DNA of 64,000 nt. It comes from Paracyclopina nana (Eukaryota; Arthropoda; Copepoda; Cyclopoida; Cyclopettidae). Shown here piece by piece: positions 12,184 to 57,507 of the stretch; the first letter of the stretch is position 1, and every line of letters starts with the position of its first letter. The notes beneath the pieces were generated by a model. The model saw only the letters and a program-made list of their open reading frames with translations. It searched no databases and was not told the origin of the DNA. The DNA is taken from assembly GCA_019096065.1 (NCBI GenBank), contig JAGUCH010000007.1, forward strand, positions 2,688,501 through 2,752,500. Reading direction: 5' to 3'. Position numbers and translations under genes: made by a program.

Positions 12184-13312
12184 GTAAGCGCTCAGTAAAG
12201 CTATAGTTAACTTACTTAAAGACAAAGTAGCTAGTAATCATACTTTGTCTGATATCATATCTTGTGACCACTCTCGTGAAAGTTAAGTTTCGGTGGGAAT
12301 ACTGTGAAAATTTCGCTATGTCATAAGTCCTGATAAATAAAATCCTTCTGTCAAAAAGTCCTGATGTGAAGAGTAGGCTCTACAAGTATAATTTACTAAA
12401 TAAAATGGCTCAAATCTACCAGAAATTGATTGAGCAGAGGTGATGAAATTGATAGCTCGGGTTCCATGACCAAGAATCACTATTCCTTTGAGCAGAGCAC
12501 AATCCAAGAGTTTACATAAGAGCCACAAGAAGATATTCCATCCACAATCTTAATTTGGTCAAGCCTCAGTAGGTTAGCGCCAAAATGCAGAAAAAATATG
12601 AATTGAGAAATCATAAGTTAAATAATGCCCAGATCATCTATGCTGCTTATTTGCAACTTTAACTAAGAAAAAAGCTGTCGTAATTCCACAAATTTCCATA
12701 AATGTTGAGGACTCTTCTTACACATGCCTTCACAATAGCTGCTTTAAGGGTTGAGTAAACTAATTGTAGAATTTCATATGCTGTCTCTAGATATATGTGC
12801 TCCTTGCAGATGACCGCCACTTAACTGAGGTTGCCGCAATAAATTAGCAAACATTCAACATGTGACTCTAGCGGATTAGCTAGAACCTAGAATAATAGCG
12901 CTAAAGTTGAGAGCTCCTGAACTTTGTGCGCTTGAAAGAGAGGCCATGATGGATAAACTCAGCAAAAATAAAAGTAAATTACCTTGGAGAGTTCATGTTG
13001 GATAAACTCAGCAAAATAAAAGGAAATTATCTTATTTTTAAAAGAAGTGGCACTATTTTGACCTGCGAAATTATAGCCAGTTAGCTCTGCTGTGTCACTT
13101 TCAATAACTTTGGATAACTTCAATTAGGCGCCATTTTGGCCACCTCTTTTGATCGTATGAGATTGAAGTGTTCCGATGAATCAGAAGTACGAAATCTTTC
13201 GCACTTCATTCAAGGAAAGATTTTAAGGAAACAAGGCATGGGTCTATAAGTGATACGTATGAATTATTTGGCTTGATCGAGTATATGTTGAGCACGTTCA
13301 GATTGCTTGCAG
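12184..13312 (+). other. Candidate 5' UTR intron of paramyosin
   Basis: AAAGCTTAG|GTAAGC at 12,183 is a strong donor, and GATTGCTTGCAG|CTTTTC at 13,312 is a good acceptor 32 bp before the paramyosin ATG. No other coding content lies between. Muscle genes often have such an upstream non-coding exon. Part of the interior, 13,135-13,250, is a copy of a dispersed repeat also found inverted at 27,915-28,040. Confidence 0.4.
13135..13250. repeat. Dispersed repeat, copy A
   Basis: The reverse complement of this stretch matches 27,915-28,040: both hold GTTTCCTTAAAATCTT, TTTCGTACTTCTGATT and a TGACCAAAAGAG-like block (ATGATCAAAAGAGG here). Divergence is substantial, so it is an old family. Its copy number elsewhere is unknown. 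Confidence 0.6.
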
Positions 13313-13344
13313 CTTTTCTGTTGAAGTCGCAGTTGAAGATCAAG

Positions 13345-16294
13345 ATGGCAAGCCGCGCTGTGGCCATCGCCGCCAGCAGCAAGGCCTCGGCGCAAGACGT
13401 GTCCACGTCCGTGGCTAGCAGGAAGACGACCAAGACGTACACGTACAAGACCGACAGCTCCGGCAACGTGTCGAGGGAGGTGCACACGCACGTGGACTCG
13501 AGCTCTGATACAAGTCACTTGGCCATTCGAAAGTTAGAGGAGCGCATTCGCATCCTGGAGGAGGATCTTGACTCCGAGCAAGGCCTTCGCCGCCGGATCG
13601 AGCGGGAGAAGCATGAGCTGCAGGCGCAGATCATTCACCTGTCCGAGAGGCTGACCGAGGCCGAGGGCGGGGCCGAGTCCCAGCTGGACATTAACCGCAA
13701 ACGCGAGGCCGAAATGGCCAAGCTGAGGAAGCTGCTGGAAGACGTGCACAGCGAGTCCGAGCAGCAGATCCACCTGCTCAGGAGGAAGCACCAGGAGGCC
13801 ATGATGGAGCTGCAGGAGCAGATCACGGAGATGTCCAAGTCCAAGGAGAAGGTGACGAAGGAGGCCTCGCGCATGAAGGTGGAGATCAGCGAACTGATCG
13901 CCCAGATCGAGATCCTCTCGCAGGAGAAGGTCTCCATCCGCAAGGTCGTGGAGAAGCTGGAGATCAACATCAGCGAGTCCTCGTCCAAGATCGAGCAGCT
14001 CAACAAGACTGTGATCGAGGTGAGCGCGGCTAAGCAGAGGCTGCAGCAGGAGAACGCCGATGCCAACCGACGCTTCAACGAAATGAAGTCCGCCATCGAG
14101 ATGAGCGGCCTCGACAAGAACAAGCTCGCCTCGAGCATTAAGGACTTGCAGGCCAACTGCGACGAGCTGGCCAGGGCCAAAGCCTCGGCCGACTCGGCAA
14201 TCAAGAACCTCGAGCAGAGGCTCAAGTCCGTCACCGTCGACTTTGAGGAGCAGCGCAGCATCAGAATCGATCTCGAGAAGCAACTCGTCAAGGCCAGGGA
14301 GGAGACCTTGGACTGGAAGAAGAGGTACGAGAACGACGTCCGCGTTCACGCTGACAACCTAGAGGACCTCAAGAAGAAGACCTCGCTCCAGATTCTCGCC
14401 ATGGAGGACACCATCAACCAGCTGAGGACACAGATCAAGACCCTGGAGCAGCAAAAGGCTAGGATGCAGCAGGAGACCTCGGTCATCATCAAAGACTTCG
14501 AGTCCTCGCAGGTCACCATCAAGGAGCTCACCGTCAAGATCAACACCTCGGAGCGAAGAGCAGAGGAGATCGCCATCAAGCTCCGCGAGATGACCAACTT
14601 GTACGAGAAGAGCGACAAGGAGGCCAAGGTGCGAGGCCAGGAGATTGTCAAGCTTGCCAATGAACTCGACCGCTCGCACATGGACAACGAGAACCTCCGC
14701 AAGGACCGCTCCAAGCTGGACGACGAGCTCAAAGGCCTCAAGGCTGAGTTGGACGCGTTCAAGAGGAGGCTGCACGAGGTTGAGCAGGAGAACCGGAAAT
14801 TGGCGCACGATCGCGAGGAGCTTGCTCGTGCCTACAAGGACACGGACACCATCAAGATGAAGATGGAGCAGCGCGTTCAAGAGCTTGAACTCGAGCTCAA
14901 GAAGCTCGCCAAGTCGGCCGAGGTCAATTTGCGCAACAAAGAGGACGAGTTCAACTCGATTCGCAAGAAGATGATTGTTGACATTGAGTCCCTGACGGTG
15001 AGGCTTCATGAGACCGAGGCAAAGCTCAAGAACGAGGTGGAGAAGATCAAGAAGAAGATGGCTGTCACCATCACTGAGCTGGAGATGTCTTTGGATGCCT
15101 CCAACAAGAACAACGTTCAGCTCCAGAACGCATCAAAGATTCAGCAACAAAAGATCATGGACTTGAGCGGAGCATACAATGATGCTGGAGCCAAGCTCAA
15201 GGCGGCCCTAGAGCAAAACTCGGCCTTTGCTAGTCGCATCCAGATCCTGGAAACTGAAATCACCAAGGTCAAGACCGTTTTCGAGCAGACCCTGCAAGCA
15301 AAGAAGGTACATACATTAATAGGATAAATCCGATTGCGTTCAACCAACTGTATACATATGATATGATTTCTAGGTGGCAGAGTCGAAGCTGAACGAGATG
15401 GCGCCGAGGCTGAACGAACTTAGTGGACTGTCCAACAACTTGGGAGCTGCCAAGGCCCAATTGGAGAAAGAGCTCGTAGCCGTGAGGAGCGAGTACACCG
15501 ACATCGCCCGGGAACTGAAGCTGGCTGACGAGAGGGCCAACAAGGCCAGTCATGACGCCCAACACTTTGAAGGCCTCCTTCGCGAGGAGCAGGCCAAGTT
15601 TGTGAAGGCTGACAACATCAAGAAGGCCTTGGAGAACGAGGTGCGGTCCATGACCATCCGCATGGAGGAGATCGAGACCAATACTGTGGCCTCCAGCCGC
15701 AGGACCATCCAGAAAATGGAGGTTAGGATTGAAGAGCTGGAGGTTCTGCTTGCCAAGGAGAAGCAGACCCACGTGGAGACGACGACAGCCCTGCACAAGA
15801 AAGAGAGGTCGGTGAAGGAGCTGCTGCTACAGTCTGAGGAAGACCGCAAGAACATCCTCATCCTCCAGGAGTCGTTGGACAAGCTCAACGAAAAGATCAA
15901 GATGTACAAACGCCAGCTGGAGGAGCAGGAGCAGATCTCCAATTCCAACATAATGCGAGTCAAGAAGTTCCAAAGGGAATTGGAGGCCGCAGAGAGCAGG
16001 GCTGAGGAGGCAGAGTCCAGCTTGAACGCCTTCAGATCCAGGGCCAGGGTCTATGCCTCCGCTGAGTCCAGAAGGGAAAACGTCGTAGAAGAGGTGGAGA
16101 GGCAGGTGGTGATCAACAAGACCTCATCCTCCATGGAGGCCAAGAGTGAGAACATGACCTCCGCAAGGATTGAGATGGGTGCGTCCAGGGATTTGAGGGC
16201 AGCTTCCACTTACTCCAGAGCAGGGTCAATGGCAAGAAGCTCAGCATTCAGGGCTGCTTCAGTGGGCAGGGCAGGCTCTACACTCAGATACTAA
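13345..16294 (+). CDS. Prm: Paramyosin
   Basis: Two exons, 13,345-15,306 and 15,374-16,294, joined in phase 0 across a 67-bp GT-AG intron, give 960 residues; the family is usually ~870-880. The protein is the rod that forms the core of invertebrate thick filaments. The first ~55 residues are a Ser/Thr-rich non-helical head. From about residue 60 (RKLEERIRILEEDLDSEQGL) to ~900 it is an unbroken heptad coiled coil, with hallmarks such as LSERLTEAEGGAE, RKLLEDVHSESE and ITELEMSLDASN shared with insect paramyosin. The Ser/Arg/Ala-rich tail ends GRAGSTLRY and is longer than in flies. The ATG is chosen because residues before it are unlike the family. Coding is strongly GC-ending compared with its surroundings, as expected of a highly expressed muscle gene. 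Polyadenylation-like AATAAA lies at ~16,480 and ~16,658. Confidence 0.95.
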
Positions 16295-31398: not shown

Positions 31399-31403
31399 TA
31401 TAG
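31399..31403. repeat. 5-bp target site duplication, left (TATAG)
   Basis: TATAG immediately precedes the 5' LTR and is repeated exactly at 43,190-43,194 after the 3' LTR. Five-base duplications are usual for BEL/Pao integrases. Confidence 0.9.
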
Positions 31404-31621
31404 TGTGTGGGCTCCCACCCCCGAGATGGAGTTGTGATGCTATCATACCGAGCTCGACTCATTTATTCGATCTGTTATGTTTATGTTTACGTCAGTACGA
31501 TTTGAGATTTCGGGAGTGATAGTTGAATAAAGTCGACTAGTACTTAGAAATCGCATCGGCTCTTTTAGTTCGTGACTTTATTCATAGTTTTACAGACAGA
31601 CAGGCTTCTGAGCTTTCCACA
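31404..31621 (+). repeat. BEL/Pao 5' LTR
   Basis: 218 bp, TG...CA ends. Contains a GAATAAA-type signal (GTTGAATAAAGTCG) typical of the R region. Followed directly by TGGCGACC, a tRNA-primer-like site. Confidence 0.93.
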
Positions 31622-31826
31622 TGGCGACCAACTCGGCAGAAGACCACGAGAGAGATTGAGAGTTCATCTGTCAACTATCCCGGCTTCTTCAGGATTGGAA
31701 AATTCCAGAGCTGAGAGTTTGGCGGAATTTTTTCGGCATCAGCTGCTGCCAGCAGCAAAGACCAAGCCTTGCTTGGCACAGTGATAGTGACACTTAACCT
31801 CACCCCAAACGGGAAGACAGTGATCA

Positions 31827-34544
31827 GTGGTGTCATCCCTAAACGGGGAGACCACCCAACAGCGGCCTAAACGGGGAGACCTCGCGGTTCCACGGATGTC
31901 CCGAGAGGCTCAAAGAACAAAAAGTGGAAGGCAAGTAAAACCTTCTCAGAGATACCCCGAAAGCGATTTTGTTACAGGCAAGAGATTGACCTCAGCGCAG
32001 CGGAACCAGTTGGAGGCTGCCAAAGATAGTGAAAGTGAGACAAACACTAGACAATACTCCGACGTAGTGCAAGACGGATACAGGTGGATCTTCGACAACC
32101 ACATGTCACAGGAAGGAAGACAAAACTTTGGAAGAGCTGACGTCAATGACTTGTCAGAGTTACACGGCTATGACACAATAGACCAACTCATGGAGATGTC
32201 AGGCCTCGAGGTTCCCGGCAATCCGGGACCGTCAAGCCAAGCTGCTCAGCAACCGCAGCAAGGAGGGCAAGGGCAACCGCAGCAGCCACAAGGGCAGCAT
32301 GTTGTCCCACCATGGAGGCTTTTATTGGGAGCAATCATGAACGATGCCAACGAAGTCATAAAGGAATTGGCCAGCAAAATCAGGGAATTGGCCAGCAAAA
32401 TCAGGGAATTGGCCAGCAAAATCAGGGAATTGGCCAGCAAAATCAGGGACACAGCGTCCCCGGATAAGGCCGACCAGTACAAAAAAGAGCTTGCGAGAAT
32501 CTCGGATGACATTGCAGTCGACATCAGCTCCACAGCCAGAGCAGTGAGGGAGCATGAGAAGGAACAGTTTGAAGCAGAGGTCGACAATATGCATTTGCAA
32601 ATAGCAGGCTACGTTTGGCAAGCAACGAAAGCCATCAGGGAGAAGAGATTGGCTTTGTTCACGGAAGACAAACCGGCGGCGACGGCCTCGGATGCTGTTG
32701 CCGCAGGTGAGGAAGAAAAAGAAGAAGAACCGACCCCCGCAGACGAAAGTGATGCCATAGAATGGGTCAAAGAGCATGCGTTGATCACTACACAGTTGAA
32801 GGATGCAGACAAAGTCAGGAGAGGCATGGAGGAAAGCAGCCTGGATCATACAAACCAGGTAATTACGATGCAGAAATTCAATGAGAGAAGAAGAGAGCTT
32901 GAGGCAAAACTCAAAGCAGTGAGCGATGGAGTTAAAAGCATCGTCAACATGCAACAACTTGTCCTCAACGCAAGGGAGTTGGACAACCTGATGATGTTCT
33001 GCACACCAAGAGCCGAAGTCAAAGTGACAAGGCCGAGTCAGTTGCTGCCAAAAGAAGCAGGTGAAGAGAGACAACCGTTCCAAGAAAGCGTAGCAGACCG
33101 AAAAGACTTGAATCTGGGGATGCCAACGGTCATGATCTCAGATGAGAAGTATGACATCAAAATAAAAGAAGAAGAAGCCTACCTAGCACAAGACACAATC
33201 ATTGACAGAGTCAGACGAAGAGTCAAGAGGGATGTCTGCTGGAGCGAATTGTTCGAACGGCGGAACCTGCACAAATTTTACGATAGGACCCTGCCAAGAG
33301 ACATGATCAGAGATGATGTGAAACCGATCTACTTCAATGGATCGGGAAATGTCCCCTACCGAGACTTCAAAGAGTTTGTCCACGCAGGCATAGTGATGAA
33401 AGCGAACATGAATTGGTTCGAAAAAATGTCAAAGTTGAAGCAGTTGTGCACTGGAATCGCGAGAAATAAAATTGCAAAGTGCGACTTGTCCATGGAAGGC
33501 TTCATTGAAGCCCTAGAAACACTGGAAGCTGATTTTCAAGAGCACAAGGGAGCAGCAGAAGAAATGATCACGGCGCTGTTGATCAAGCTCCGGAGCAGAG
33601 CGATCATTTCTTTGAAAGACCTCAACACAGTGGAGGCAGCATTAGCCATTGTTGAAGAAATCATAGACTGCAACGGCAGAGCTGGAAAAGATCCATTGGA
33701 TGGTCAAGCCTCGATCTTGTCAAATATAATCATGGACAGCTACACTGAGAGAAACTATGAGGCATTCAAGGAACAAAAGCTGCAATCAAGAAACTCGCTT
33801 AGACTGTTCATAACTTGGGCCAAACTGAGAGTGAAAGATCACATCAAAAATAGAAAGGCTGACCAATTCATCAAGAACATCACAAAAGTGTACGACAACT
33901 CAGACAAGGAAGAAGATGCTGAGCAGCAAAAGAGAAGACAATTCAAGAAGAAAACCTTCAACAAAAGAAGAGAATACGTCAACTACGCCAGCGATGATGG
34001 AGACAGTGAGAGCTCGACGTCAGAAGAAGAGGTCACGGCGCTAGCAGGCCCTAAAGAGCCATGCTTTGTTTGCAACAAGAGCGGGCACAGAGGCTTCCAG
34101 TGCGAGAGCTGGGGGGACTACAACTTGTCGGACATAGCAGAGCTGGTAAAGAAAGCAGAGCTGTGCGAGAAGTGTCTAAGAGGGAGACATTCTATCAAAA
34201 ACTGCGCCAAGAAGACAATGGTGTGCGAAGTCTGCCAGAGTCCAGATCATCATACGAAGCTTCATGGAGTGAAAAAGAAAGACAGCAGGCCAGCCAAGAG
34301 CAGAGGAGACTTCAAGAAGCAGCTCAGGGATGCACTGATGAATGTGGTCAAAATTGTGGATGAGGAGGCTACACTGCTCAATCAAGACCTCGGTTGTCTT
34401 GATGAGGGCAGCGAGGAAGAAGACGTAGAGGTGGTGGGTCTTGTTGGGAAGAAAGAAAGATCATGGATGACAGTTCCAGTGGAAGTGGCGATGTCCAAGG
34501 AGTTCGAAACTTCATTGGAGACGAACGCATTGATCGACATCTGA
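31827..34544 (+). CDS. gag: BEL/Pao gag, 905 codons, ends inside protease start
   Basis: A long open frame. Residues ~1-150 are polar; residues ~110-150 are rich in Gln/Pro. At 32,363-32,446 a 21-bp unit is repeated four times (ELASKIR). The centre is a long charged helical region. Zinc-binding knuckles follow: CFVCNKSGHRGFQC, then CEKCLRGRHSIKNC and CEVCQSPDHHTKLH, the three-knuckle pattern of BEL gag proteins. The frame stops at ALIDI-stop, exactly where the protease active site (ALID-S/T-G) would be expected, so the protease is lost. The first methionine in frame may not be the true start; nearer ATGs downstream are possible. Confidence 0.8.
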   Translation: MVSSLNGETTQQRPKRGDLAVPRMSREAQRTKSGRQVKPSQRYPESDFVTGKRLTSAQRNQLEAAKDSESETNTRQYSDVVQDGYRWIFDNHMSQEGRQNFGRADVNDLSELHGYDTIDQLMEMSGLEVPGNPGPSSQAAQQPQQGGQGQPQQPQGQHVVPPWRLLLGAIMNDANEVIKELASKIRELASKIRELASKIRELASKIRDTASPDKADQYKKELARISDDIAVDISSTARAVREHEKEQFEAEVDNMHLQIAGYVWQATKAIREKRLALFTEDKPAATASDAVAAGEEEKEEEPTPADESDAIEWVKEHALITTQLKDADKVRRGMEESSLDHTNQVITMQKFNERRRELEAKLKAVSDGVKSIVNMQQLVLNARELDNLMMFCTPRAEVKVTRPSQLLPKEAGEERQPFQESVADRKDLNLGMPTVMISDEKYDIKIKEEEAYLAQDTIIDRVRRRVKRDVCWSELFERRNLHKFYDRTLPRDMIRDDVKPIYFNGSGNVPYRDFKEFVHAGIVMKANMNWFEKMSKLKQLCTGIARNKIAKCDLSMEGFIEALETLEADFQEHKGAAEEMITALLIKLRSRAIISLKDLNTVEAALAIVEEIIDCNGRAGKDPLDGQASILSNIIMDSYTERNYEAFKEQKLQSRNSLRLFITWAKLRVKDHIKNRKADQFIKNITKVYDNSDKEEDAEQQKRRQFKKKTFNKRREYVNYASDDGDSESSTSEEEVTALAGPKEPCFVCNKSGHRGFQCESWGDYNLSDIAELVKKAELCEKCLRGRHSIKNCAKKTMVCEVCQSPDHHTKLHGVKKKDSRPAKSRGDFKKQLRDALMNVVKIVDEEATLLNQDLGCLDEGSEEEDVEVVGLVGKKERSWMTVPVEVAMSKEFETSLETNALIDI
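32363..32446 (+). repeat. 21-bp repeat x4 in BEL gag
   Basis: Four perfect or near-perfect copies of GAATTGGCCAGCAAAATCAGG encoding ELASKIR in a predicted helix. In-frame expansion, so the reading frame is kept. Confidence 0.9.
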
Positions 34545-34551
34545 CACGGAG

Positions 34552-36037
34552 ATGAGGTATCTTATGGATAGACAATATGGATTAGAATCGATAGGCATCG
34601 ATCGAGCTGAGCAGCCAACGAAGAGATTGACTGTGGCAGAGGAGGCGGCCCTGGAGAAGATGAAAAAGACGCTGAGACGATTGCCAAATGGGTTATATGA
34701 AGTGGGGATCCCAATGATCAAGGAGAATCCGAACTTGATCGACAACTTCAAGCAATGCGCAGCCATTCAGCGCACATTGGATAAGAAGCACGCAAAAGAC
34801 CCAAGAGTCGCAAAGGCAGTTGAAGACACGATGGCAGAATACGTCAGACTGGGCATAATTGAGCCAGTCCCAGCCTCGGATGTTGGGACTGGAAATTTCG
34901 TGCCATATTTCTGTGTCGCAAGAGAAGGCAGCGAGACAACAAAGTATAGGTTTGTCTACAACGCAAAGCAAAAGTTTGGGGGCACCTCCATCAATGAAGA
35001 AATGTACACGGGCCCGAACTACCTCGACGACATCTTTGACACGATGATCCAATTCAGGGTGGGAGAAGTCGGGGTGGTAAGTGACATTGAAAAAATGTAT
35101 CTCATGATCGCTCTTCCAGAAAAGGACCGCAAGTACTTGAGAATTATAGTCAATGGCCAGCAAATGCAGTTTTGCAGGTGGCCATTTGGTCTCAGAGCAG
35201 CGCCGAGCAAATTTCGTGGTTAAGCAACATATCAAGGAGCACGGCTCGAAGAGGTTGCGTGAGACGGTCAGAATATACATGGATGACGTCATCGTGGCCT
35301 TCAAAACAGTGGAAGAGGCCAAGAGCATCATGAATGAGCTCATCCCGTTGATGAGCAGCTGCGGCATGGAGCTCAGGAAGTTTGTCTCCAACAAGACTGA
35401 AGCATTGGCGGATGTACCAAAGGAAAGGCTGGGAAAGGCCATGGTCGTGGGAGAGACAAATGAAATACCTGTGCACTCAACATTAGGCCTGAAATGGGAG
35501 CCCAAGACTGACAGAATTGGCTACAAGCTATCAAGAGTGGAACAAAAAGTGATCACCAAGAGAATTATGGCGAGTCAGATTGCAGCAGTTTATGATCCAT
35601 TGGGAGCACTAACACCATGCCTGCTTAAGGCCAGGAGAGCCTTGCAGTTGGCCCACAAAGCAGACAGGATCGAAAAGATTGCATGGGACGACAACATTGA
35701 AAAATTTGAGCAAGAGCAGTCGCACGTGGAGATCTGGGAAGAAGACGACCAGGAGGGCATGGAAGATGCTAATGATGAGCCAGTAACTTTGGCACTCATT
35801 TCGGAGGGCACTCAGGTCGAGGAGGCTGATTTCCTGCCGCCCAGTCAGGGCATCCCCGGAGGCTATGAAGATGAGCTCATGGCAGATATGGCAGATGCGG
35901 CACCAGTGATGAAAAGTCACCTCAAGCCAGGAGGTCGCACGCTAGCACCTGACGAGGACTACCTGAAGAACTACGGTAAGCCCAATAAAGCATGCCCTGA
36001 ATTAGTTTGCGGCGAGCTCATCGGAGTCGAGTCCAAG
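34552..36037 (+). pseudogene. pol: BEL/Pao reverse transcriptase (frameshifted)
   Basis: Two overlapping frames, 34,552-35,223 and 35,153-36,037, meet at a frameshift near 35,200 in the conserved RWPFGLRAAPSKF block. The first holds IIEPVPASDVGTGNFVPYF and the BEL-type palm start VGEVGVVSDIEKMYLMIALP. The second has the catalytic IYMDDVIVAF, STLGLKWEPKTDRIGYKL and AAVYDPLGALTPCLLKARRA, which closely follow BEL/Pao RTs. After ~35,700 the sequence is acidic and unlike RNase H. The frame runs straight into the nested Ty3 element at 36,038. Confidence 0.85.
36034..36037. repeat. 4-bp target duplication of nested element (CAAG)
   Basis: CAAG occurs directly before the first nested LTR and again at 41,339-41,342 directly after the second. 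Confidence 0.75.
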
Positions 36038-36275
36038 TGTTATGTTTTTATAACCTTCATCATGGCGCTAGCGCGTCGTGTTGTAGTAAAATGTAGTAGT
36101 ATAGTAGTATAGTTCGAGCCGCGCTACCTAACCACACTTTCACCTATGCAGGATGTGCAATGCTATTCACCTTGACAGTACATTGTATATACAGTGCTTG
36201 GTTGAGAAATAAACTCAGTTGTGGCTTTGTACGAGAGAAGTCAAGTCCCATCATGTAGACACCAAATTCACAACA
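36038..36275 (+). repeat. Nested Ty3 5' LTR
   Basis: 238 bp, TG...CA. Contains AGAAATAAACTCAG, a polyadenylation-type signal. Followed by ACTGGTGGCAGCTC, which may hold the primer site. Confidence 0.92.
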
Positions 36276-36344
36276 ACTGGTGGCAGCTCACTTACCTGCA
36301 GCCCTGGAGGGAATGAGAAGTGAGTGATGCTGTGTCCTATTTAA

Positions 36345-37394
36345 ATGGCTGATAGTGAGGACGAATATTATGAGGACGAATATTACGAAGAGGCTTCATC
36401 AGAGGGAACAATTCGACCTACTGCTCCACCACAAGAGGATAACACAGAAACCTCTGCATTTCCTCAACAATATCTGTTCACCATGGCTTAGCGTAATATC
36501 AAGGCAATTGATGTACCCGAATTTAGTGGGGACCCGGCAGTTGACAAGCTGCAAGCACGAGCATGGGCTAGGAGGATCGACGATTTAAGAGCCCTTGCCA
36601 ACGAAAACATCCCAGCTGGACAGCCGCAAAGATGGACGGACGAAATGACGGCCATGTACGCTGCCATGGCACTCAAAGCCAAGGCAGCACAATGGTATAG
36701 CACCCTAAAGGAAGAGGGATTTGCTCCTAAAAAGTGGAGTGGAGTATCTGGTCTGAAGAAGGAGTTCCTGGATCATTGGCACCATGAGGCCACTTTAGCC
36801 GAACAGTCCGCAATCGAGGACAGCCTGGTGCAGGAGGCATCAGAATCCGTGCGGGATTTCTATGACTGTGTAAAAACTGGAGTCATGACCCTGATGGAAA
36901 CTTTCATCGTCCTTGGTGAGGGCGAGTACGCCACAAATGACGCTGCCATAGAAATGTGCAAGAGGAGCGCATATGTGTTCGCATGCCGGCGAAAGTTCAT
37001 TCAAGGTCTGTTACCTGCCATCAAGAAGCAGGTGATCGTGCATGACATCACGGACCTTAAGGAAATCTTCAAGGTTGCTAAGCGTGTAGAGGCCTCATTG
37101 TCAAGTGAAAAGAAAGCCACTGTACCAGTCCCTGAAGTCCATGCTGTTGAGCAAGCCGACAGTGCTCAGGAGAGCAATCCTCACGACCAGCCTCTGACAC
37201 TAGGAGCACTTGTGAATCTCATCAATGGAAGTGGAGCGCGAGGACAAGCGCAAGGACAAGTGCAAGGACAAGCCCGAGGACAAGTGCGGGGTCCTGCGAA
37301 TGGACAGTTCCGAGCCAACATGGTCTGCTGGTATTGCACCAAGAAGAATCATAGTGAGGCTGAGTGCTTTTCCAGGCAAGCAGATGCTGCTTAG
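36345..37394 (+). pseudogene. gag: Nested Ty3 gag with one zinc knuckle
   Basis: An acidic start (MADSEDEYYEDEYYEEASSE) at 36,345 reads to a stop near 36,491; the frame then continues as the capsid region (IDVPEFSGDPAVDKLQARAW; TDEMTAMYAAMALKAKAAQW) to the zinc knuckle CWYCTKKNHSEAEC and ends at 37,394. A short Gly/Gln/Arg repeat (GQAQGQVQGQARGQ) precedes the knuckle. The early stop may be a true gene end or a mutation. Confidence 0.7.
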
Positions 37395-37462
37395 GGCATG
37401 TACAACCCAAGGCCTGGCAGTAAAAGAGCAACAGAGCAGGAGGCAAATAAGGTCAATGAAGT

Positions 37463-39088
37463 TTGTGCCTCCTACCATTCCAACCCTTTAAACTGGTAAA
37501 CGACCAGGGTGGGCTCCGCACCACTGGTCGTCGCAAGGTCGTTGAGCTTTTTCACGCAATCACAAGTTTCAGCCTGCTATCCTCGAGTGAGAATACCAAC
37601 CGACCTTTTGTATCAATCCACAGCCTTGGAGCCACCTTTGAAATGTTGTTTGACACTGGCTCCAATATTTCCCTGTTATCACTTATGGCATTCAGGAGAA
37701 TTGCCCCCCAACTAAGACCTCAGAAAATTACAAATGCTCCTATGTTACGCGCAACTTGTGCTTCCGGAAACCCTTTAAAGATCAATGGACTTTATGAAAT
37801 AGACTGTGTAATAGAAGACCGACAGTTGAAGTGGCCATTTTATGTGTGCGAGGGACTCGCACTTGATGGAATTGTGGGTATTGACCTGATCCATGCTAGC
37901 GGCTTGTTTTATGATCCCATATCGATGAAAATCCACTCTGCAAATAAGTTTCAACTTGAGGCCAGAACTCAGAAGAAGACGTACATACCCGCCAGAAGTG
38001 TCGCTACAATTTCCGTGCAGCTGAAGAACCAGGATAATGGGCCCATAGCTCACTTTGAAGGATGTCTCCAAAGAAGCGATGCCGTCCAACTTTGCAAGGA
38101 GGATTGCCTCATCCGTTCTACTCAACAAGGAATCGCTAATATTAAGGTTACTAATGCAGGATTATTGCCTTTTGAGATAGACAAGGTTTCTTTCATAGGG
38201 CAAATTTTGAGTGTTGATAAGATTGTCCCAGTACATGATGTGTTTTTAAAAGATAAAAATGTTATAGGGAGGCCTTCTAAACAGGTGGAGGACTACATTC
38301 TAAAGCATGCAAATCTTGATCACCTTTTTCCTAATCTATGTCAGAGTTATTTGAAGTGTTTACTTCGTAATTCTGACATTATTTCCACTTCAGAATTTGA
38401 CTTGGGTGACTGCACCTTGATGAAACACAAATTTGACACACATGACCACCGACCAGTTCATGCTAGACAATTCCAGATTCCCATGTCACATCTTGATGAA
38501 ATCAACAAAAGCATTGAAGATTGGCTGGAGATGAACATTTTGGAACCCTACAATTCTCCCTGGAACTCAAGTATTTTCTGTGTGCCCAAGAAACTGCCAG
38601 TTGGAGCTACTGGTTGGAGACCAATGGTCGACTTTAGAAATCGAAGGAATGTTCCTGTTCTTCTGCGAGGTGGTGAACCTCACAATATCATTGTTAAGGC
38701 CATTGAGGACATGGCATTTCTGAAGAAGTCACGAGGGCTTCTGCAAGGTGGTGAACCTCACAATATCACTTTTGAGGCCATGGAGGATATGGCAGTTCTG
38801 AAGAAGTCACGAGGGCTTCTGCAAGGTGGTGAACCTCACAATATCACTTTTGAGGCCATGGAGGACATGGCAGTTCTGAAGAAGTCACGAGGGCTTCTGC
38901 AAGGTGGTGAACCTCACAATATCACTTTTGAGGCCATGGAGGACATGGCAGTTCTGAAGAAGTCACAAGGGCTTCTGCAAGGTGGTGAACCTCACAATAT
39001 CACTTTTGAGGCCATGGAGGACATGGCAGTTCTGAAGAAGTCACAAGGGCTTCTGCAAGGTGGTGAACCTCACAATATCACTTTTTAG
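37463..39088 (+). pseudogene. pol: Nested Ty3 protease and truncated RT running into tandem repeats
   Basis: The protease has FEMLFDTGSNISLLSLMAF and the flap-like ALDGIVGIDLIHASGL. The RT begins with MNILEPYNSPWNSSIFCVPK and GWRPMVDFRN, then is cut off at ~38,660. Instead of the palm domain it reads GGEPHNITFEAMEDMAVLKK repeats until a stop at 39,086-39,088. A second frame-matched ORF continues through the repeats to 40,114. No catalytic RT residues remain. Confidence 0.75.
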
Positions 39089-39975
39089 GCCATGAAGGAC
39101 ATGGCAGTTCTGAAGAAGTCACGAGGGCTTCTGCAAGGTGGTGAACCTCACAATATCACTTTTGAGGCCATGGAGGACATGGCAGTTCTGAAGAAGTCAC
39201 GAGGGCTTCTGCAAGGTGGTGAACCTCACAATATCACTTTTGAGGCCATGGAGGATATGGCAGTTCTGAAGAAGTCACGAGGGCTTCTACAAGGTGGTGA
39301 ACCTCACAATATCACTTTTGAGGCCATGGAGGACATGGCAGTTCTGAAGAAGCTACGAGAGCTTCTGCGAGGTGGTGAACCTCACACTATTACTGTTGAG
39401 GCCATGGAGGACATGGCAGTTCTGAAGAAGCTACGAGAGCTTCTGCAAGGTGGTGAAACCCACAATAGCACTGTTGAGGCCATGGAGGACATGGCAGTTC
39501 TGAAGAAGCTACGAGAGCTTCTGCAAAGTGGTGAAACCCACAGTAATTCCGTCGAGGCCATGGAGGCCATGAGGGACATGACAGTAATGAAGAAACTTGA
39601 GGACATGGAGGACATGGCAGTTATGAAGAGGCTACAAGTGAGTGGTGAAACCCACTGTAGCACTGTTGAGGCCATGGAGGACATGGCAGTAATGAAGAAA
39701 CTACAAAAGAGTGGTGAAACCCACAGTAATTCCGTTGAGGCCATGGAGGACATGGCAGTTATGAAGAGGCTACAAGAGAGTGGTGAAACCCACTGTAGCA
39801 CTGTTGAGGCCATGGAGGACATGGCAGTAATGAAGAAACTACAAAAGAGTGGTGAAACCCACAGTAATTCCGTTGAGGCCATGGAGGACATGGCAGTAAT
39901 GAAGAAACTACAAGAGAGTGGTGAAACCCACAGTAATTCCGTCGAGGCCATGGAGAGCCTGGCAGTTATGAAGAA
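38669..39975 (+). repeat. 78-bp tandem repeat array, in coding frame
   Basis: Copies start at 38,669, 38,747, 38,825 and every 78 bp to ~39,527, each encoding a 26-residue unit around EPHNITFEAMEDMAVLKKS. After 39,540 the units are shorter and diverged (SGETHSNSVEAMEDMAVMKK) to ~39,975. Copies 2-9 are almost identical while later ones drift, the usual sign of recent expansion at one end. Confidence 0.92.
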
Positions 39976-40116
39976 ACTCCGGAAATGTATTGAAACCCTA
40001 AGTATAGTTGTTGACGCCATAGAAGACAGTGCAACCATGAGGAAGCTACAATCTACAGACTTGGTTGTTGCGGCTTTCCTTTCCTTTGTTAAACAAGGAC
40101 TTGTACCCAGATAACA

Positions 40117-40606
40117 AAGGGTTATTGGTTTGGTTGGATTGCCCAGAACTTCTGAAATTCAACCAAACCAATAACCCTTTCCTAAAGTTTTCTGGCTTGA
40201 TCTTGGCATCTAAAACCATATTTGGATCCATTAATGGTTTTCTGGGATGCACTCCAAAAAGGAGGAAGAATGGACTCATTCTTGTTGTCTCACTCAAAGG
40301 AGAAGATGTATCAAGCATCTTCCGCAAGTAACTTAAGTGATATTGTGAGGTTCACCACCTTGCAGAAGCCCTTGTGACTTCTTCAGAACTGCCATGTCCT
40401 CCATGGCCTCAAAAGTGATATTGTGAGGTTCACCACCTTGCAGAAGCCCTCGTGACTTCTTCAGAACTGCCATGTCCTCCATGGCCTCAAAAGTGATATT
40501 GTGAGGTTCACCACCTTGCAGAAGCCCTCGTGACTTCTTCAGAACTGCCATGGCCTCCATGGCCTCAAAAGTGGTTGGATTGCCCAGAACTTCTGAAATT
40601 CAACCC
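40117..40606 (-). pseudogene. Inverted segment with integrase fragment and reversed repeats
   Basis: The minus strand encodes TTRMSPFFLLFGVHPRKPLM, the C-terminal part of a Ty3 integrase core, and 40,331-40,570 holds about three 78-bp repeats in reverse orientation. The segment is bordered by two copies of TTGGATTGCCCAGAACTTCT (near 40,134 and 40,574). A perfect 20-bp inverted repeat (40,117-40,136 and 40,161-40,180) lies at the left border. This shows an internal inversion in the element. Confidence 0.75.
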
Positions 40607-41024
40607 GAAAATTCCCCTCAAATCAGAGGAACCAGCTGCCAGCATTGCCTCTCCGATGACGACAACACCTCCACTAATTAAGCAAGAACCAGACTCTCCA
40701 CCTGCGGAAGAGGTACTCATTCATGACGATGTGCATGAACCCACTCAATATGATCAACCACCAGACTTGCCGTCAAGAAGTAACCCTGGCTCACCTAGGA
40801 AACTACTCAACCGTTTTCGTGACAGCTTCCGAGTGGGACGAGACCCCACAAGCTCATTGACACGCAATCAGGCTAGAGCTCAACAAGTTTTGATAGAAGA
40901 CCAGCCTTTACCAGCCAAGTTACCAGAATACAAGCCTGGCCGGGGCCGACCTAAGAAAAATGATGTTTGCCTTAACATGGCTTGTTACATTTTCTTATTT
41001 GACCTGACACCTTACACTTTCTAA
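40607..41024 (+). pseudogene. Nested Ty3 pol C-terminal piece with AT-hook-like motif
   Basis: A polar, Pro/Ser-rich stretch (TTTPPLIKQEPDSPPAEEVL; FRDSFRVGRDPTSSLTRNQA) followed by PGRGRPKKND, an AT-hook-like motif, ending at 41,024. It probably is the tail after integrase. No catalytic motif. Confidence 0.5.
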
Positions 41025-41100
41025 CTTTTACGACTTGGTGGTGGTTTTGCTAATATCTTCATCTCCCTGTTAACAACAGCTTTCTTTAGCTTGGGAGGGA

Positions 41101-41338
41101 TGTTATGTTTTTATAACCTTCATCATGGCGCTAGCGCGTAGTGTTGTAGTAAAATGTAGTAGTATAGTAGTAAAGTACGAGCCGCGCTACCTAACCACAC
41201 TTTCACCTAAGCAGGATGTGCAATGCTATTCACCTTGACAGTACATTGTATATACAGTGCTTGGTTGAGAAATAAACTCAGTTGTGGCTTTGTACGAGAG
41301 AAGTCAAGTCCCATCATGTAGACACCAAATTCACAACA
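41101..41338 (+). repeat. Nested Ty3 3' LTR
   Basis: 238 bp, preceded by a GGGAGGGA purine tract. About four differences from the 5' copy. Confidence 0.92.
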
Positions 41339-41342
41339 CAAG

Positions 41343-41591
41343 AGGGGTGGCAGGTGCGAAGTGATGATGTGCGTGGCGAGAGCTGAGTTCAGCAAGGCAG
41401 AGTGCTCGTCACCAAAGATGAGAGTGCCCGTCAAAATCACAGTGGCTCAAGCATTGGCCAGGGCAAAGATGGGCGCCAAGAGCAGGTACGACTTGTCGGG
41501 GCCGAAGGTCCAATCAGTCCTGGTCTACGGGCTCACAAAAACATCGAACCTGAGTACAAGCAACTACTGGGTGAGTCTTTGTATCGCTTAA
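41343..41591 (+). CDS. Continuation of the BEL pol frame after the nested insertion
   Basis: With the nested element and its duplicated CAAG set aside, this frame follows the RT frame directly. It reads MRVPVKITVAQALARAKMGA and ends shortly after VLVYGLTKTSNLSTSNYW. It resembles neither RNase H nor integrase. It overlaps the beginning of the exonuclease ORF in another frame. Confidence 0.45.
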   Translation, partial: RGGRCEVMMCVARAEFSKAECSSPKMRVPVKITVAQALARAKMGAKSRYDLSGPKVQSVLVYGLTKTSNLSTSNYWVSLCIA

Positions 41592-42859
41592 GAAAAAATG
41601 ATTTTTTTGAAGACATCGAAAGCCACGGGTTCATGACCGTGGACTGCGAAGGATTTAGCACGTTTGTCAGTGATAAGTACGCTGACGTGTATGGAGCCAA
41701 CCAAGGCCAGTGGCAGAACATGACTGCATACTTGCACATGGGATCGCCAGGGGGAGTTGCTTTTGGCATCAGGGTTGCCTTCATTGGCACGAGATTTCTT
41801 GGTCGTGAGATCCCTGACGAGATTAAAGCTCTCTTGGAGTCGCCGAAGATCTCTAAGATTGGCTATGGTATTGATGGAGATCTGAAGAGGCTGAGGTACA
41901 TGGGCGTGAATCTGCAAAATTGGGTCGACGCTAGCCACTTCAACAGACTTCTGGATCCAACCAGCGACATTGGCAAGTGGCAAGCTTTGAGGCTCCTGGG
42001 TGTGCAGCATGAGATCAAGAAGCCAAACTGGAAAGACGATCACTATGGTGGGTTCGTCGACGAGTACAGCCTCACAATCATGTATTATGACAGGGCTGAT
42101 CAATTTGTGCCCTTTGCGGCCCTGCTGAAGGTGGCTGCTTTGTTGGGGCAGAAAGAAGGCTTGAAGGACGAAGACAACGTTCACCAGTATGCGATTCATG
42201 TGCTGGAATTACTCAGAGGGTGCCCAGCAAAGGCCGGTGGCAGCAGCAAGTTTGCCGACTTCCTTCCCGACCTCGGTTGTCGGGAAGGAGTGGTGACATT
42301 GCTGCGTGAAGAATCCAGGATGTGGAACTCTCTTCGTCAGACGCTACTTAATGTGCGTGAGTTTGAGTTTGTCTTCCCCTTGAATAAGACGGCGTTTGTG
42401 ACACTAGATGAAGATGACTTGAACGCCGTGGCGACCTTGGCTAGAGCTCATGTTGAGGAGCTTCACCTGACTCACCTTGTTAAACCTGCATGGGAGCAAG
42501 GAGTTGGAGTTAAAGCTGGATCAGCTAACTTGTCAACATACCCGCATGCATGCACCTTGTGCGGGTCATTTGACCACGTAGTTGCAGATTGCTTGGAACT
42601 AGATCTGGAATGCAAGCTGCCATTCTGCAAAGAGTCGGGTCACGTGTCGAAGGTTTGCCCCTCGGCCTTGACCAATTGTGAGATTTGTGATGGGCGTGGT
42701 CACACAGCCAGCCACCATGAAAAGGATGACTCGGTGCAGGTCTATGCCGCTGTTCATCTTGGCCAATTCCTGCATTGCATGGCTGTTAAGTGCCTAGACC
42801 GCGACGCCAGGCTGCTGGTCTCGGAGCACAAGAGCAAGTTCCGCATCTACCACGCTTAG
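41402..42859 (+). CDS. DEDDy 3'-5' exonuclease with three zinc knuckles, encoded by the BEL/Pao element
   Basis: 485 codons open to the stop at 42,857. No ATG opens the frame before residue 78 (41,633); the RT-side frame (41,343-41,591) overlaps it by 190 bp, so a ribosomal frameshift, splicing or an old mutation would be needed to join them. Residues ~77-245 carry the RNase D/WRN-type exonuclease fold: motif I VDCEGF (D81, E83), motif II IGYGIDGDLKRL (D160) and motif III YDRADQF (Y229, D233). All four acids and the Tyr of DEDDy enzymes are kept. Residues 384-439 hold zinc knuckles CTLCGSFDHVVADC, a C-x4-C-x4-H-x4-C knuckle, and CEICDGRGHTASHH. Inside the LTRs and TSD, so part of the element. 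Substrate (DNA or RNA) is unknown. This looks like a captured host domain sitting where integrase normally lies. Confidence 0.85.
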   Translation: MLVTKDESARQNHSGSSIGQGKDGRQEQVRLVGAEGPISPGLRAHKNIEPEYKQLLGESLYRLRKNDFFEDIESHGFMTVDCEGFSTFVSDKYADVYGANQGQWQNMTAYLHMGSPGGVAFGIRVAFIGTRFLGREIPDEIKALLESPKISKIGYGIDGDLKRLRYMGVNLQNWVDASHFNRLLDPTSDIGKWQALRLLGVQHEIKKPNWKDDHYGGFVDEYSLTIMYYDRADQFVPFAALLKVAALLGQKEGLKDEDNVHQYAIHVLELLRGCPAKAGGSSKFADFLPDLGCREGVVTLLREESRMWNSLRQTLLNVREFEFVFPLNKTAFVTLDEDDLNAVATLARAHVEELHLTHLVKPAWEQGVGVKAGSANLSTYPHACTLCGSFDHVVADCLELDLECKLPFCKESGHVSKVCPSALTNCEICDGRGHTASHHEKDDSVQVYAAVHLGQFLHCMAVKCLDRDARLLVSEHKSKFRIYHA

Positions 42860-42971: not shown

Positions 42972-43189
42972 TGTGTGGGCTCCCGCCCCCGAGATGGAGT
43001 TGTGATGCTATCATACCGAGCTCGACTCATTTATTCGATCTGTTATGTTTATGTTTACGTCAGTACGATTTGAGATTTCGCGAGTGATAGTTGAATAAAG
43101 TCGACTAGTACTTAGAAATCGCATCGACTCTTTTAGTTCGTGACTTTATTCATAGTTTTACAGACGGACAAGCTTCTGAGCTTTCCACA
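42972..43189 (+). repeat. BEL/Pao 3' LTR
   Basis: 218 bp, TG...CA, five differences from the 5' LTR. Preceded by the purine-rich AGGGGAGAC. Confidence 0.93.
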
Positions 43190-43194
43190 TATAG
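43190..43194. repeat. 5-bp target site duplication, right (TATAG)
   Basis: Second copy of TATAG flanking the BEL/Pao element. Confidence 0.9.
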
Positions 43195-43922: not shown

Positions 43923-44583
43923 TAAAATAAATACATATTCTGAAAGCTTATGCTATGGGGGTTCATTTGGTAGTAATTTTAAAATCCTGGCCTAGCGCTT
44001 CCCGTAACATAAAATTTTAAAAAACTTCTAGCGTCGAAAATATTGACTTGGTCGGATTTTCCCTGTTATAATACCCCCAATAAAATTGCAAGATCTATCT
44101 TTCTTTATTTCATAAGAAAAATGCTAGGATGCCCTGGAATCGAGATACAGTGGTGGCAGGTGTCTTCTTTGCCAAATGGCATGAATTCATCAGTTGTATG
44201 ATCCGACCACAATGGCTCATTATCTTCCGCGTCTTTGATCGTAGCATGGTTGCGGTTGTTATCGGTTCTTATTTACTGACGAGGTTGCGATGTCAGTAAA
44301 TAAGAAGCGATAACAACCGTAACCAAGCCACGATCAAAGACGCGGAAGATAATGAGCCAATATCTCGATTTCTGGGCATCCTAGCAATTTTTGTATGAAC
44401 TAAAGAAATATAGATCTCGCAATTCTAGTGGGGGTATATTAGCATACAAAATCCGACCAAGTCAATGCTTTCGGCGCTAGAAGTTTTTTAATTTTATGCT
44501 ATGGGAAGTGCTAGGCCAGGATTTTAAAATTACTACCAAATGAACCCCCAGAGCATAAGCTTTCAGAATATGTATATATTTTG
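43923..44583. mobile_element. ~660-bp fold-back element with nested hairpin
   Basis: Arms of ~230 bp: the left starts ATACATATTCTGAAAGCTTA (43,931) and the right ends with its complement (~44,572). They match through TACTACCAAATGAACCCCC, GACCAAGTCAATG and the GGGGGTAT blocks. The 150-bp centre (44,205-44,355) is itself a hairpin, CTCATTATCTTCCGCGTCTT against AAGACGCGGAAGATAATGAG. No ORF. Target duplication not resolved. Confidence 0.85.
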
Positions 44584-55349: not shown

Positions 55350-57507
55350 TCAGGTGTAGAAGATAATTTCGGGTATTTGACCGTCCTCGACGGATGTTCC
55401 ATTGTTATTGCCGGCCACGTAGGAAAATTGGAAAGTCACCTTTTGCCCTCCAGGACAATCCAATGAAACCTTTCTAAGCCCCTTCGTGCCATAGTGAGAA
55501 TCAAGGCCCTGAAAGACAGAAAAGGTTTTTAGTAGGAGATTTGATGGCGAACCAAATGTCTTCACCTTCAGAGTGGCACTTGCTGTGTAATTTGTGCCAG
55601 GCTGAATTTCGATTGGCTCCTTGAACATAACTCTAAATGTGGAATTGGATCCGTCTGAAGTGAATGAGACCTCGTTGGAGCCAAGGAGCCGCTCAGATCC
55701 AGTGTGAATGATTTGGATAGTAACTTGGTACTCGCAGGGACCGTGAATGGAACCATAAAGTCCGAAGCCAACCACGTAAATGCGTTTGTCGACAATGAAC
55801 CTATGGAAAGTAGGAAAATCTGGAAGGCAGTTCACATGAAATGCCATATTTGAGAAAAAGACCTGATTTTGTCCGACATGCCCGAGTAGCCCCACCGACT
55901 TTCGATTTGCCGATATCTCCCCACAGTTTGCTCTTTCCCCGTCATGGAGCACCTTGGCACATCCAAAAATCCCACAGGAGGCTTGGGATTCACAGTGAAA
56001 TGAAGAAAGAGTGAAACGCATTCACGATCAGTAAGAATTCCAGATTGTGCGGGTCCATGGGCGAATTCCTCTACATTCATCAAAGGAAACCGAACTTGGC
56101 CAAGAACTCGTCCCAACACAGCACGCTTGTTTTCTGCGTTCAATTGCAAATTTTGTCTTAAGCATTCGGCTTCAGACCACTTAATGACTGCTGCAAATAG
56201 TTTGGCCTCTTTGATCCTCAATGAGTCCCTATCAAGGACCGCGCTAAGGGTTTTGATATCAATGTCAGTGAAGCCCTCGGCAGAAAAAGCTTCTGGAGTA
56301 TTCTTATCGATAGTTTCCAAGCACAGAGCTGCTAGTTGAGGCTCGTCGAAAAGTCTGGCCTTGAAATAAAATTGAAAAAGTGACTGTGAAGCATAAGGCT
56401 AGAAATGGAACTATTTCATTACCTGGGTCAACAGCATGAAAGCGTTGTCGGCGCACAGGTGTCTCTTGAGGAAATCGACACAATGTTTTTCCAACGCTGG
56501 TACTGCATACTTTTTTGCAGTGTAGAGAGTTGTCATGACGGTTTCAGGTCCAATTTGGACCTCATCAGAGTACAAAAATTTCAGCAGGGCCAGAAAGGAT
56601 GCAGGCTCAACGTCAGGTAGTGGGATCTCTTCGTCGCTATTGTAGAGAAAAAGGGTGCTCCATTAATGAGCAACCTATAAAGTGTGCATTCGTTACCTTG
56701 TAGCCAGAGTCGAGTTGAACATGGCATCAAAAACGGCCGATCCAACCGAAAGGACAAAGCGGTGAGCTGGAATCCTTTGCTGCTGGTTATCCCTGCCCAC
56801 GATGAAAGTGACATCACTCAAGATAGAGCTGTTGAACAGGAATGAGATTCGCTCCTTGACAGTCATTTTGGTGGACTGCCAATTGTAAAATCCAATGCCA
56901 TGGTTGTCGTGGCTGTGCTGCTCCCTAGGAGAAGCAAATTGCAGCGTGTTTCTCCTGTGGAGTGGTGACCCTGGTCTGTTGTTGTGGGGTCCTCCTCTGG
57001 GACTTTGGCTGTTCAGGGGTGGAGGCAAGCTATGAGCACGGGCATTTTCAGGCTGAGCAAGGTCAGCACGCTCCAGAGCTGCTGCTAGGCCTCCAGAAAG
57101 GTCATCGTTGACAGCTTCAGCATTGTTGTCCTCGCTTTGCCTCACATTGCCCGACGATCCTTGGCTTCTCCTTTGGTACCAAGGTTGCTGTGAAAGAAAC
57201 AAAATTAGCTTTTGGCAATTACTTGCATGAAGAAGTTTATCACAAGAAAGTTGGAAGGCTCCCGTGGAGCTGATGCGGAAGCTAGCGGGCTATTTTTGGC
57301 CTCGTCCACGTCAGCAGCATCGTGGTCGTTCTCGGAAGTGTCGTGGAAGCCAACTTCATCCTGGGCGGGGATATCATCTAACTCATTGTCCTCTTGTTCG
57401 AGGTTGTCAGCGGCGAACTCGTCTTCGGGAAGTCGAGGCATGTCTGATCGGCGGCCAATTCGTTCTAGTCGACTTGCTGTGCTCTCACTCGAGGAAGGAA
57501 AATGCAT
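55350..57507 (-). CDS. BTBD2: BTB-BACK-PHR protein, BTBD1/BTBD2 orthologue
   Basis: Six exons: 57,507-57,223; 57,187-56,697; 56,636-56,423; 56,359-55,863; 55,800-55,566; 55,508-55,350; joined length 1,881 bases, 626 residues. The first ~200 residues are disordered, acidic then Pro/Ser/Arg-rich. The BTB domain begins about [18 protein letters not shown] and includes [17 protein letters not shown] and [20 protein letters not shown]. The BACK domain follows ([20 protein letters not shown]). The PHR domain at the end reads [18 protein letters not shown] and closes [20 protein letters not shown], which is almost identical to vertebrate BTBD2/BTBD1. BTB-BACK-PHR proteins bind cullin 3 and serve as substrate adaptors for ubiquitination; BTBD1/2 also bind topoisomerase I. 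Introns are 36-63 bp. Confidence 0.95.

Follow-up and report, generated by a model that had tools for sequence, protein, structure and literature searches.

Juno and Vesta are Gypsy-like elements. DEDDy exonucleases are encoded by ORF3 in these two kinds of LTR retrotransposons and in the Athena/Terminon elements of bdelloid rotifers, and a Cys-His-Cys motif is described for Vesta2 and Vesta5 (PMC5408684, accessible part). The benefit of the extra ORFs to the rotifer elements is left unclear in that part of the paper, where Pao elements are not mentioned and neither Juno nor Vesta is assigned to BEL/Pao. The accessible part of another paper lists a DnaQ-like exonuclease among the accessory domains of LTR elements (PMC6338049), and Maelstrom is described as having a DnaQ-type exonuclease fold that has been kept while the catalytic set has been lost (PMC2628886, accessible part). 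A word search of the open-access literature found no exonuclease in BEL/Pao in titles and abstract openings, and no earlier report of Gag-like knuckles or of a split into active and inactive members. An earlier interpretation of the present locus (the sequence-only reading) had named DEDDy exonucleases of rotifer Terminons and knew of none in BEL/Pao. The first point was too narrow because Juno and Vesta carry them in ORF3.

In the copepod Paracyclopina nana, the sequence comparisons presented here support a BEL/Pao element in which a WRN/EXD2-type DEDDy exonuclease is combined with zinc knuckles. The window, which is the whole stretch of 64,000 nucleotides that was analysed, contains one copy of this element (Table 1), and comparison with intact relatives shows that it is a degenerate copy from a large BEL/Pao group. 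The 218-bp LTRs and the exact 5-bp duplication described by the sequence-only reading were both recovered.

Table 1. Features of the BEL/Pao copy and of the element nested in it (window positions)
Feature	Position	Strand	Details
TATAG target-site duplication, left copy	31399..31403		
5' LTR, BEL/Pao element	31404..31621	+	218 bp, TG...CA; 5 mismatches to the 3' LTR over 219 aligned positions
gag ORF	31824..34544	+	sub-threshold DUF1759 match; knuckle triple CCHC-CCHC-CCHH
pol remnant with RT (matches under the cut-off) and the first part of Peptidase_A17 (34.1 bits)	34534..35709	+	split over two frames
Internal-deletion junction	35699..35709		about 3.4 kb gone, about 11-bp overlap; from comparison with intact L008
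Acidic linker of exonuclease ORF, upstream of nested element	35699..36037	+	
CAAG, likely target duplication of nested Gypsy	36034..36037, repeated 41339-41342		
Nested Gypsy element	36038..41338	+	LTRs 36038-36275 and 41101-41338, 98% alike
Exonuclease ORF, 3' remnant	41387..42859	+	490 codons, stop to stop; relatives align from about 41561
DEDDy exonuclease domain	41585..42121	+	D86, E88, D165, Y234, D238 intact
Three zinc knuckles	42551..42718	+	C-x2-C-x4-H-x4-C, C-x4-C-x4-H-x4-C, C-x2-C-x4-H-x4-H
3' LTR, BEL/Pao element	42972..43189	+	
TATAG target-site duplication, right copy	43190..43194		

The window copy is damaged in two ways. Its pieces match the intact copy L008 (reversed) up to position 2598 and again from 6005, and the deletion mapped in this way has removed the remaining A17 region, the whole integrase and the N-half of the exonuclease ORF, so that pol directly abuts the acidic linker of the exonuclease gene. 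The Peptidase_A17 match that is left exceeds the Pfam cut-off of 22.3 bits, RVT_1 is under its cut-off, and no integrase match was found in the ORFs of this copy. The exonuclease ORF is further interrupted by a 5.3-kb Gypsy element, unmentioned in the sequence-only reading, whose Retrotrans_gag and aspartyl protease matches are both below the Pfam cut-off. The first approximately 58 codons of the window exonuclease ORF are out of the frame of its relatives, where matches begin at residue 59-61, and a second match, covering residues 1-74, contains stops. Set beside its intact counterpart of about 1,000 amino acids, the ORF of 490 codons is a remnant.

Several other features of the window were recorded. 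The 5' leader (31622-31900; from 4385 in the copy L010) has the purine-rich word AACGGGGAGAC twice, and this word resembles the polypurine stretch GGGGAGAC directly before the 3' LTR. The nested Gypsy element has long tandem arrays within and after its pol frame (38504-40573), with 12 register copies spaced by 78 bp, six spaced by 69 bp and a set of three in inverted orientation (40335-40573); a repeated peptide can be read from part of the arrays. Nested inverted repeats with arms of 99, 131 and 68 nt that are 85-94% complementary, possibly a foldback element, are found at 43924-44582. The window also has an additional RT/RNase H fragment (2990-3784, minus strand), a myosin-tail coding stretch (13180-16291, plus strand) and an ORF with a PHR domain (55353-56021, minus strand). 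The last two are in keeping with animal DNA, whereas the canonical nematode SL1 22-mer was looked for and is absent.

The exonuclease ORF of the window has motif I as MTVDCEGF (D86, E88), motif II as GIDGDLK (D165) and motif III as YDRADQF (Y234, D238), and the zinc knuckles occupy residues 389-444. The four acids, the DEDDy tyrosine and the three knuckles that had been read from the letters are all there. The profile search proposed at that time gave a divided answer: three relatives exceed the cut-off of PF01612 (3'-5' exonuclease) alone, with 27.7, 25.3 and 24.5 bits, and one more does so with its neighbours, but the window ORF alone stays below it (20.8 bits, E 3.8e-4, Pfam cut-off 23.6). 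Profile hits in the PDB are weak and span the domain incompletely, with WRN 2fbt at 0.0074, a reconstructed diDNase ancestor at 0.02 and EXD2 6k17 at 0.029. A single-sequence AlphaFold2 model was of no use for assessing an RNase H-like exonuclease fold (mean pLDDT 36.5). Relatives elsewhere were sought without success: the protein collection gave nothing at E <= 0.001 among 7,998 and 7,994 scored candidates, and IMG/VR gave no match either.

Two intact copies of 10.3 kb each are found on contig C4 (at about 7787166-7797468 and 8476803-8487123). Their LTR pairs are identical (218/218 in both) and their 5-bp duplications are exact, which suggests that both were inserted recently. In these copies gag-pol is a single long frame of 2,176 and 2,189 codons that ends in integrase, and a separate ORF of 1,022 or 998 codons lies between gag-pol and the 3' LTR. 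The third ORF is built up by an N-half without known relative, an acidic linker, the DEDDy exonuclease and, last, the three zinc knuckles. In other elements this position is occupied by env. Since integrase is followed by a separate exonuclease ORF in the intact copies, the gene order identifies the exonuclease ORF as a third gene that has been added where env would lie, and not as a replacement of integrase.

The assignment to BEL/Pao builds on the TG...CA LTR pair with a 5-bp duplication, found in the window and in the two intact copies, and on an RT with a Pao-type Peptidase_A17. When the first intact copy was searched in pieces, A17 scored 99 bits, RVT_1 38.6 and the DUF5641 model of the integrase 62 bits, and matches to aspartyl protease and H2C2 were below cut-off. 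The RNase H of BEL/Pao lies in the stretch after RT/A17, and no RNase H Pfam model matched the pieces of this copy. The N-half of the third ORF had no match in the PDB profile search, and its Pfam matches are weak, below cut-off and each present in one or two of 21 members. Words resembling splice sites, GTAAGT at the end of pol and TCTAGTC after pol, were seen in two and three elements; with splicing between these candidate sites the frame appears to hold in one copy but to fail in a second one.

When the complete genome (10 contigs, 92 Mb) was searched at the protein level, which gives lower bounds for all counts, ORFs of the catalytic type were located at 41 or more places after the matches had been joined by hand. 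All 38 integrases that are at least 40% identical to that of the intact copy have such an ORF downstream in the same orientation, at a distance of 1.2-7.7 kb. Thus, integrase and exonuclease are both present, and the case that the sequence-only reading had named as speaking against it, copies with a normal integrase and no exonuclease, did not turn up among these close integrases. A close integrase accompanies 38 of the 41 catalytic-type ORFs; the three without one include that of the window.

Two further searches with distant ORFs as queries found at least 93 additional homologous ORFs, of which 80 have Peptidase_A17 3.4-5.4 kb upstream. Of 345 integrase candidates, 108 were scored, and 107 were used after one piece of a split integrase had been dropped. 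At the sensitivity used, such an ORF lies within 9 kb downstream of 32 of the 69 distant integrases and was not detected after the other 37. The latter number may be an overestimate because the one of the 37 that was read (L082, C4:7321500-7323867) has a third ORF of 741 or more codons that matches the distant profile weakly (domain E 1.8e-5, with 0.76 as the best of 200 shuffles); its match to the catalytic-branch profile is not significant (domain E 0.037, whole 0.17). BEL/Pao is very abundant in this genome, with at least 150 Peptidase_A17 matches in 92 Mb (150 of 243 candidates scored), many of them in open frames of 2,000-3,100 codons.

The catalytic residues separate the two sets of ORFs completely where they were scored. 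The full set (D, E, D, Y, D), with the D-x-E, D and Y-x3-D motifs in order, is kept in 26/26 aligned catalytic-branch ORFs, some of which are as little as about 30% identical to the window ORF. These comprise the window and 25 of 29 fetched loci, i.e. 26 of the 41 places; L029, L030, L036 and L037 were omitted because of short or split ORFs. As all five residues are kept in all of these related ORFs, the motifs are not a product of chance. None of the 22 distant ORFs counted (of 93) has the full set or these motifs. The first aspartate is missing in all 22 and the aspartate of motif III in all 22, the motif I glutamate is kept in four, and motif II has D in seven and E in 13. Motif I reads, for instance, CHFQPWT or ATLGTLNW, compared with MTVDCEGF in the window. 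A histidine replaces the first aspartate in 10 of the 22, and W-T is found nearby in most. All twelve knuckle ligands are invariant when three distant rows are aligned with 17 catalytic rows.

An unrooted tree of 45 ORFs, made without two near-copies and one broken row and accompanied by a tool warning on long branches that meet, places the catalytic and distant groups on the two sides of a 100/100 branch. We infer that the distant branch is inactive, and other catalytic chemistry may occur there, given the single acids kept in some ORFs. Because the enzyme family that the domain resembles is an active one, the branch without the catalytic set is read as derived. The loss of the set argues against catalysis as essential to BEL/Pao replication in general. 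The distant branch resembles Maelstrom, where the catalytic set of an exonuclease has likewise been lost. Maelstrom is a host protein with an EHHCHC set of its own (PMC2628886, accessible part), whereas the loss seen here is inside a retroelement gene.

The exonuclease is under purifying selection, with pN/pS of approximately 0.02-0.14 over 15 pairs from the catalytic branch. Constraint is weaker in the distant branch, where the exonuclease region gives approximately 0.16-0.42 over eight pairs, and the ratio is far below 1 throughout the 23 pairs. Because most pairs are close to saturation at synonymous sites, dN/dS was computable for few, and the pN/pS values are overestimates of it. In the single intact pair compared, the exonuclease (0.107) is constrained like RT-A17 (0.136) and integrase (0.145), and the N-half and the end of the third ORF have values of 0.200 and 0.223. 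A chance resemblance or a host gene carried as a passenger is ruled out by the 26 intact catalytic sets, the low pN/pS and the presence across the group.

The third ORF and the element's own Gag have the same order of knuckles, CCHC-CCHC-CCHH. When whole profiles of the ORF and Gag were compared, the best aligned part was exactly the knuckle triple (probability 68-71%, E 4-5e-5), the knuckle region being found in 40 of 48 ORF rows, and the Cys/His columns were invariant in 24/24 and 20/20 rows of two alignments. The resemblance is suggestive, but not proof, of knuckles derived from the Gag nucleocapsid; it could also be convergent, as cysteine patterns score easily. One difference is in the second knuckle, which is C-x2-C in Gag but C-x4-C in the window and most ORF rows, although four ORF rows (L038, L040-L042) have C-x2-C as well.

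EXD2 and WRN exonucleases are among the best PDB profile matches of the retroelement domain, which differs from them in being far diverged and followed by zinc knuckles. Among six exonuclease-like loci of the host, the ORF profile matches the EXD2-like gene L055 best (8e-8 in the set of six); L055 itself matches EXD2 6k17 at 6.3e-20. Together with the PDB profile matches, this makes a source of the WRN/EXD2 type likely. The capture of a host enzyme of the RNase D/WRN/EXD kind, as suggested by the sequence-only reading, would thereby be narrowed to this type, and the associated idea of a replaced integrase falls.

For the role of the third gene we lean, with a little better than even confidence, towards a nucleic-acid-binding cofactor of the particle that would trim 3' ends in the catalytic branch and act without that catalysis in the distant branch. 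The knuckles would bring the protein to the RNA of the element or to the particle. In the catalytic branch, the intact residues point to an exonuclease that would trim 3' ends of element nucleic acid, be it RNA, primer or cDNA ends, and this choice of target is a guess. The same protein in the distant branch would most likely be a nucleic-acid-binding cofactor without such trimming. Binding would then be the shared and older role, and trimming would have been kept in one branch.

The main rival, possible but rather unlikely, is counter-defence, in which the protein would remove or bind small silencing RNAs (piRNA or siRNA) or their precursors, active members by trimming and inactive members by sequestering them. 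The position as an accessory gene with no fusion to RT fits this role, and elements that have the catalytic set occur beside elements that lack it, as sequestration would allow. Furthermore, mut-7, Maelstrom and EXD1 are named as silencing-linked DEDD proteins in the accessible part of PMC5408684. However, the Gag-like knuckles point to the RNA of the element, and the low pN/pS, far under 1 in every one of the 23 pairs, gives no sign of an arms race. It is conceivable, and we put it forward only tentatively, that a BEL/Pao lineage fused a host exonuclease of the WRN/EXD2 type to a duplicate of its own nucleocapsid knuckles as a standing third gene, that the gene outlived catalysis in many branches, and that its product is a Maelstrom-like RNA-binding factor controlling or shielding against small-RNA silencing.

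DEDD exonucleases proofread in DNA polymerases. They do so also in nidoviruses (PMC7968707, accessible part), and in the pair compared here the exonuclease is under selection of the same strength as RT. The removal of mismatched 3' ends during reverse transcription is nevertheless improbable because the exonuclease has a separate ORF outside pol and relatives without the catalytic set (0/22 distant ORFs with it). Even less probable is an env substitute serving entry or exit, which the position of the third ORF would suit and which PMC5408684, in its accessible part, raises for enzymatic ORF3s and deems unlikely: the nuclease active site and zinc knuckles are conserved in the catalytic branch, and no glycoprotein Pfam match was found in the searched ORF sequences. 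An exonuclease in place of RNase H and integrase, as the sequence-only reading had it from a copy whose ORFs give no integrase match, has next to no probability and is refuted for the family by the 38/38 coexistence and the mapped deletion in the window.

Compared with the bdelloid Juno, Vesta and Athena elements, as they are described in the accessible part of PMC5408684, the P. nana elements are alike in being LTR retrotransposons with an extra ORF that encodes an RNase D-like DEDDy exonuclease. The ORF is separate and follows pol here too, in the two intact copies and in the order seen for all 38 close integrases. The differences are that these are BEL/Pao elements, that constraint is strong, that there are three Gag-like knuckles and a long N-half without known relative, and that at least 41 catalytic-type and at least 93 distant ORFs occur in one genome. 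This genome thus holds a natural contrast between two branches, one that has the catalytic set and one that lacks it, which is suited to asking whether captured DEDDy exonucleases are useful through binding or through cleavage.
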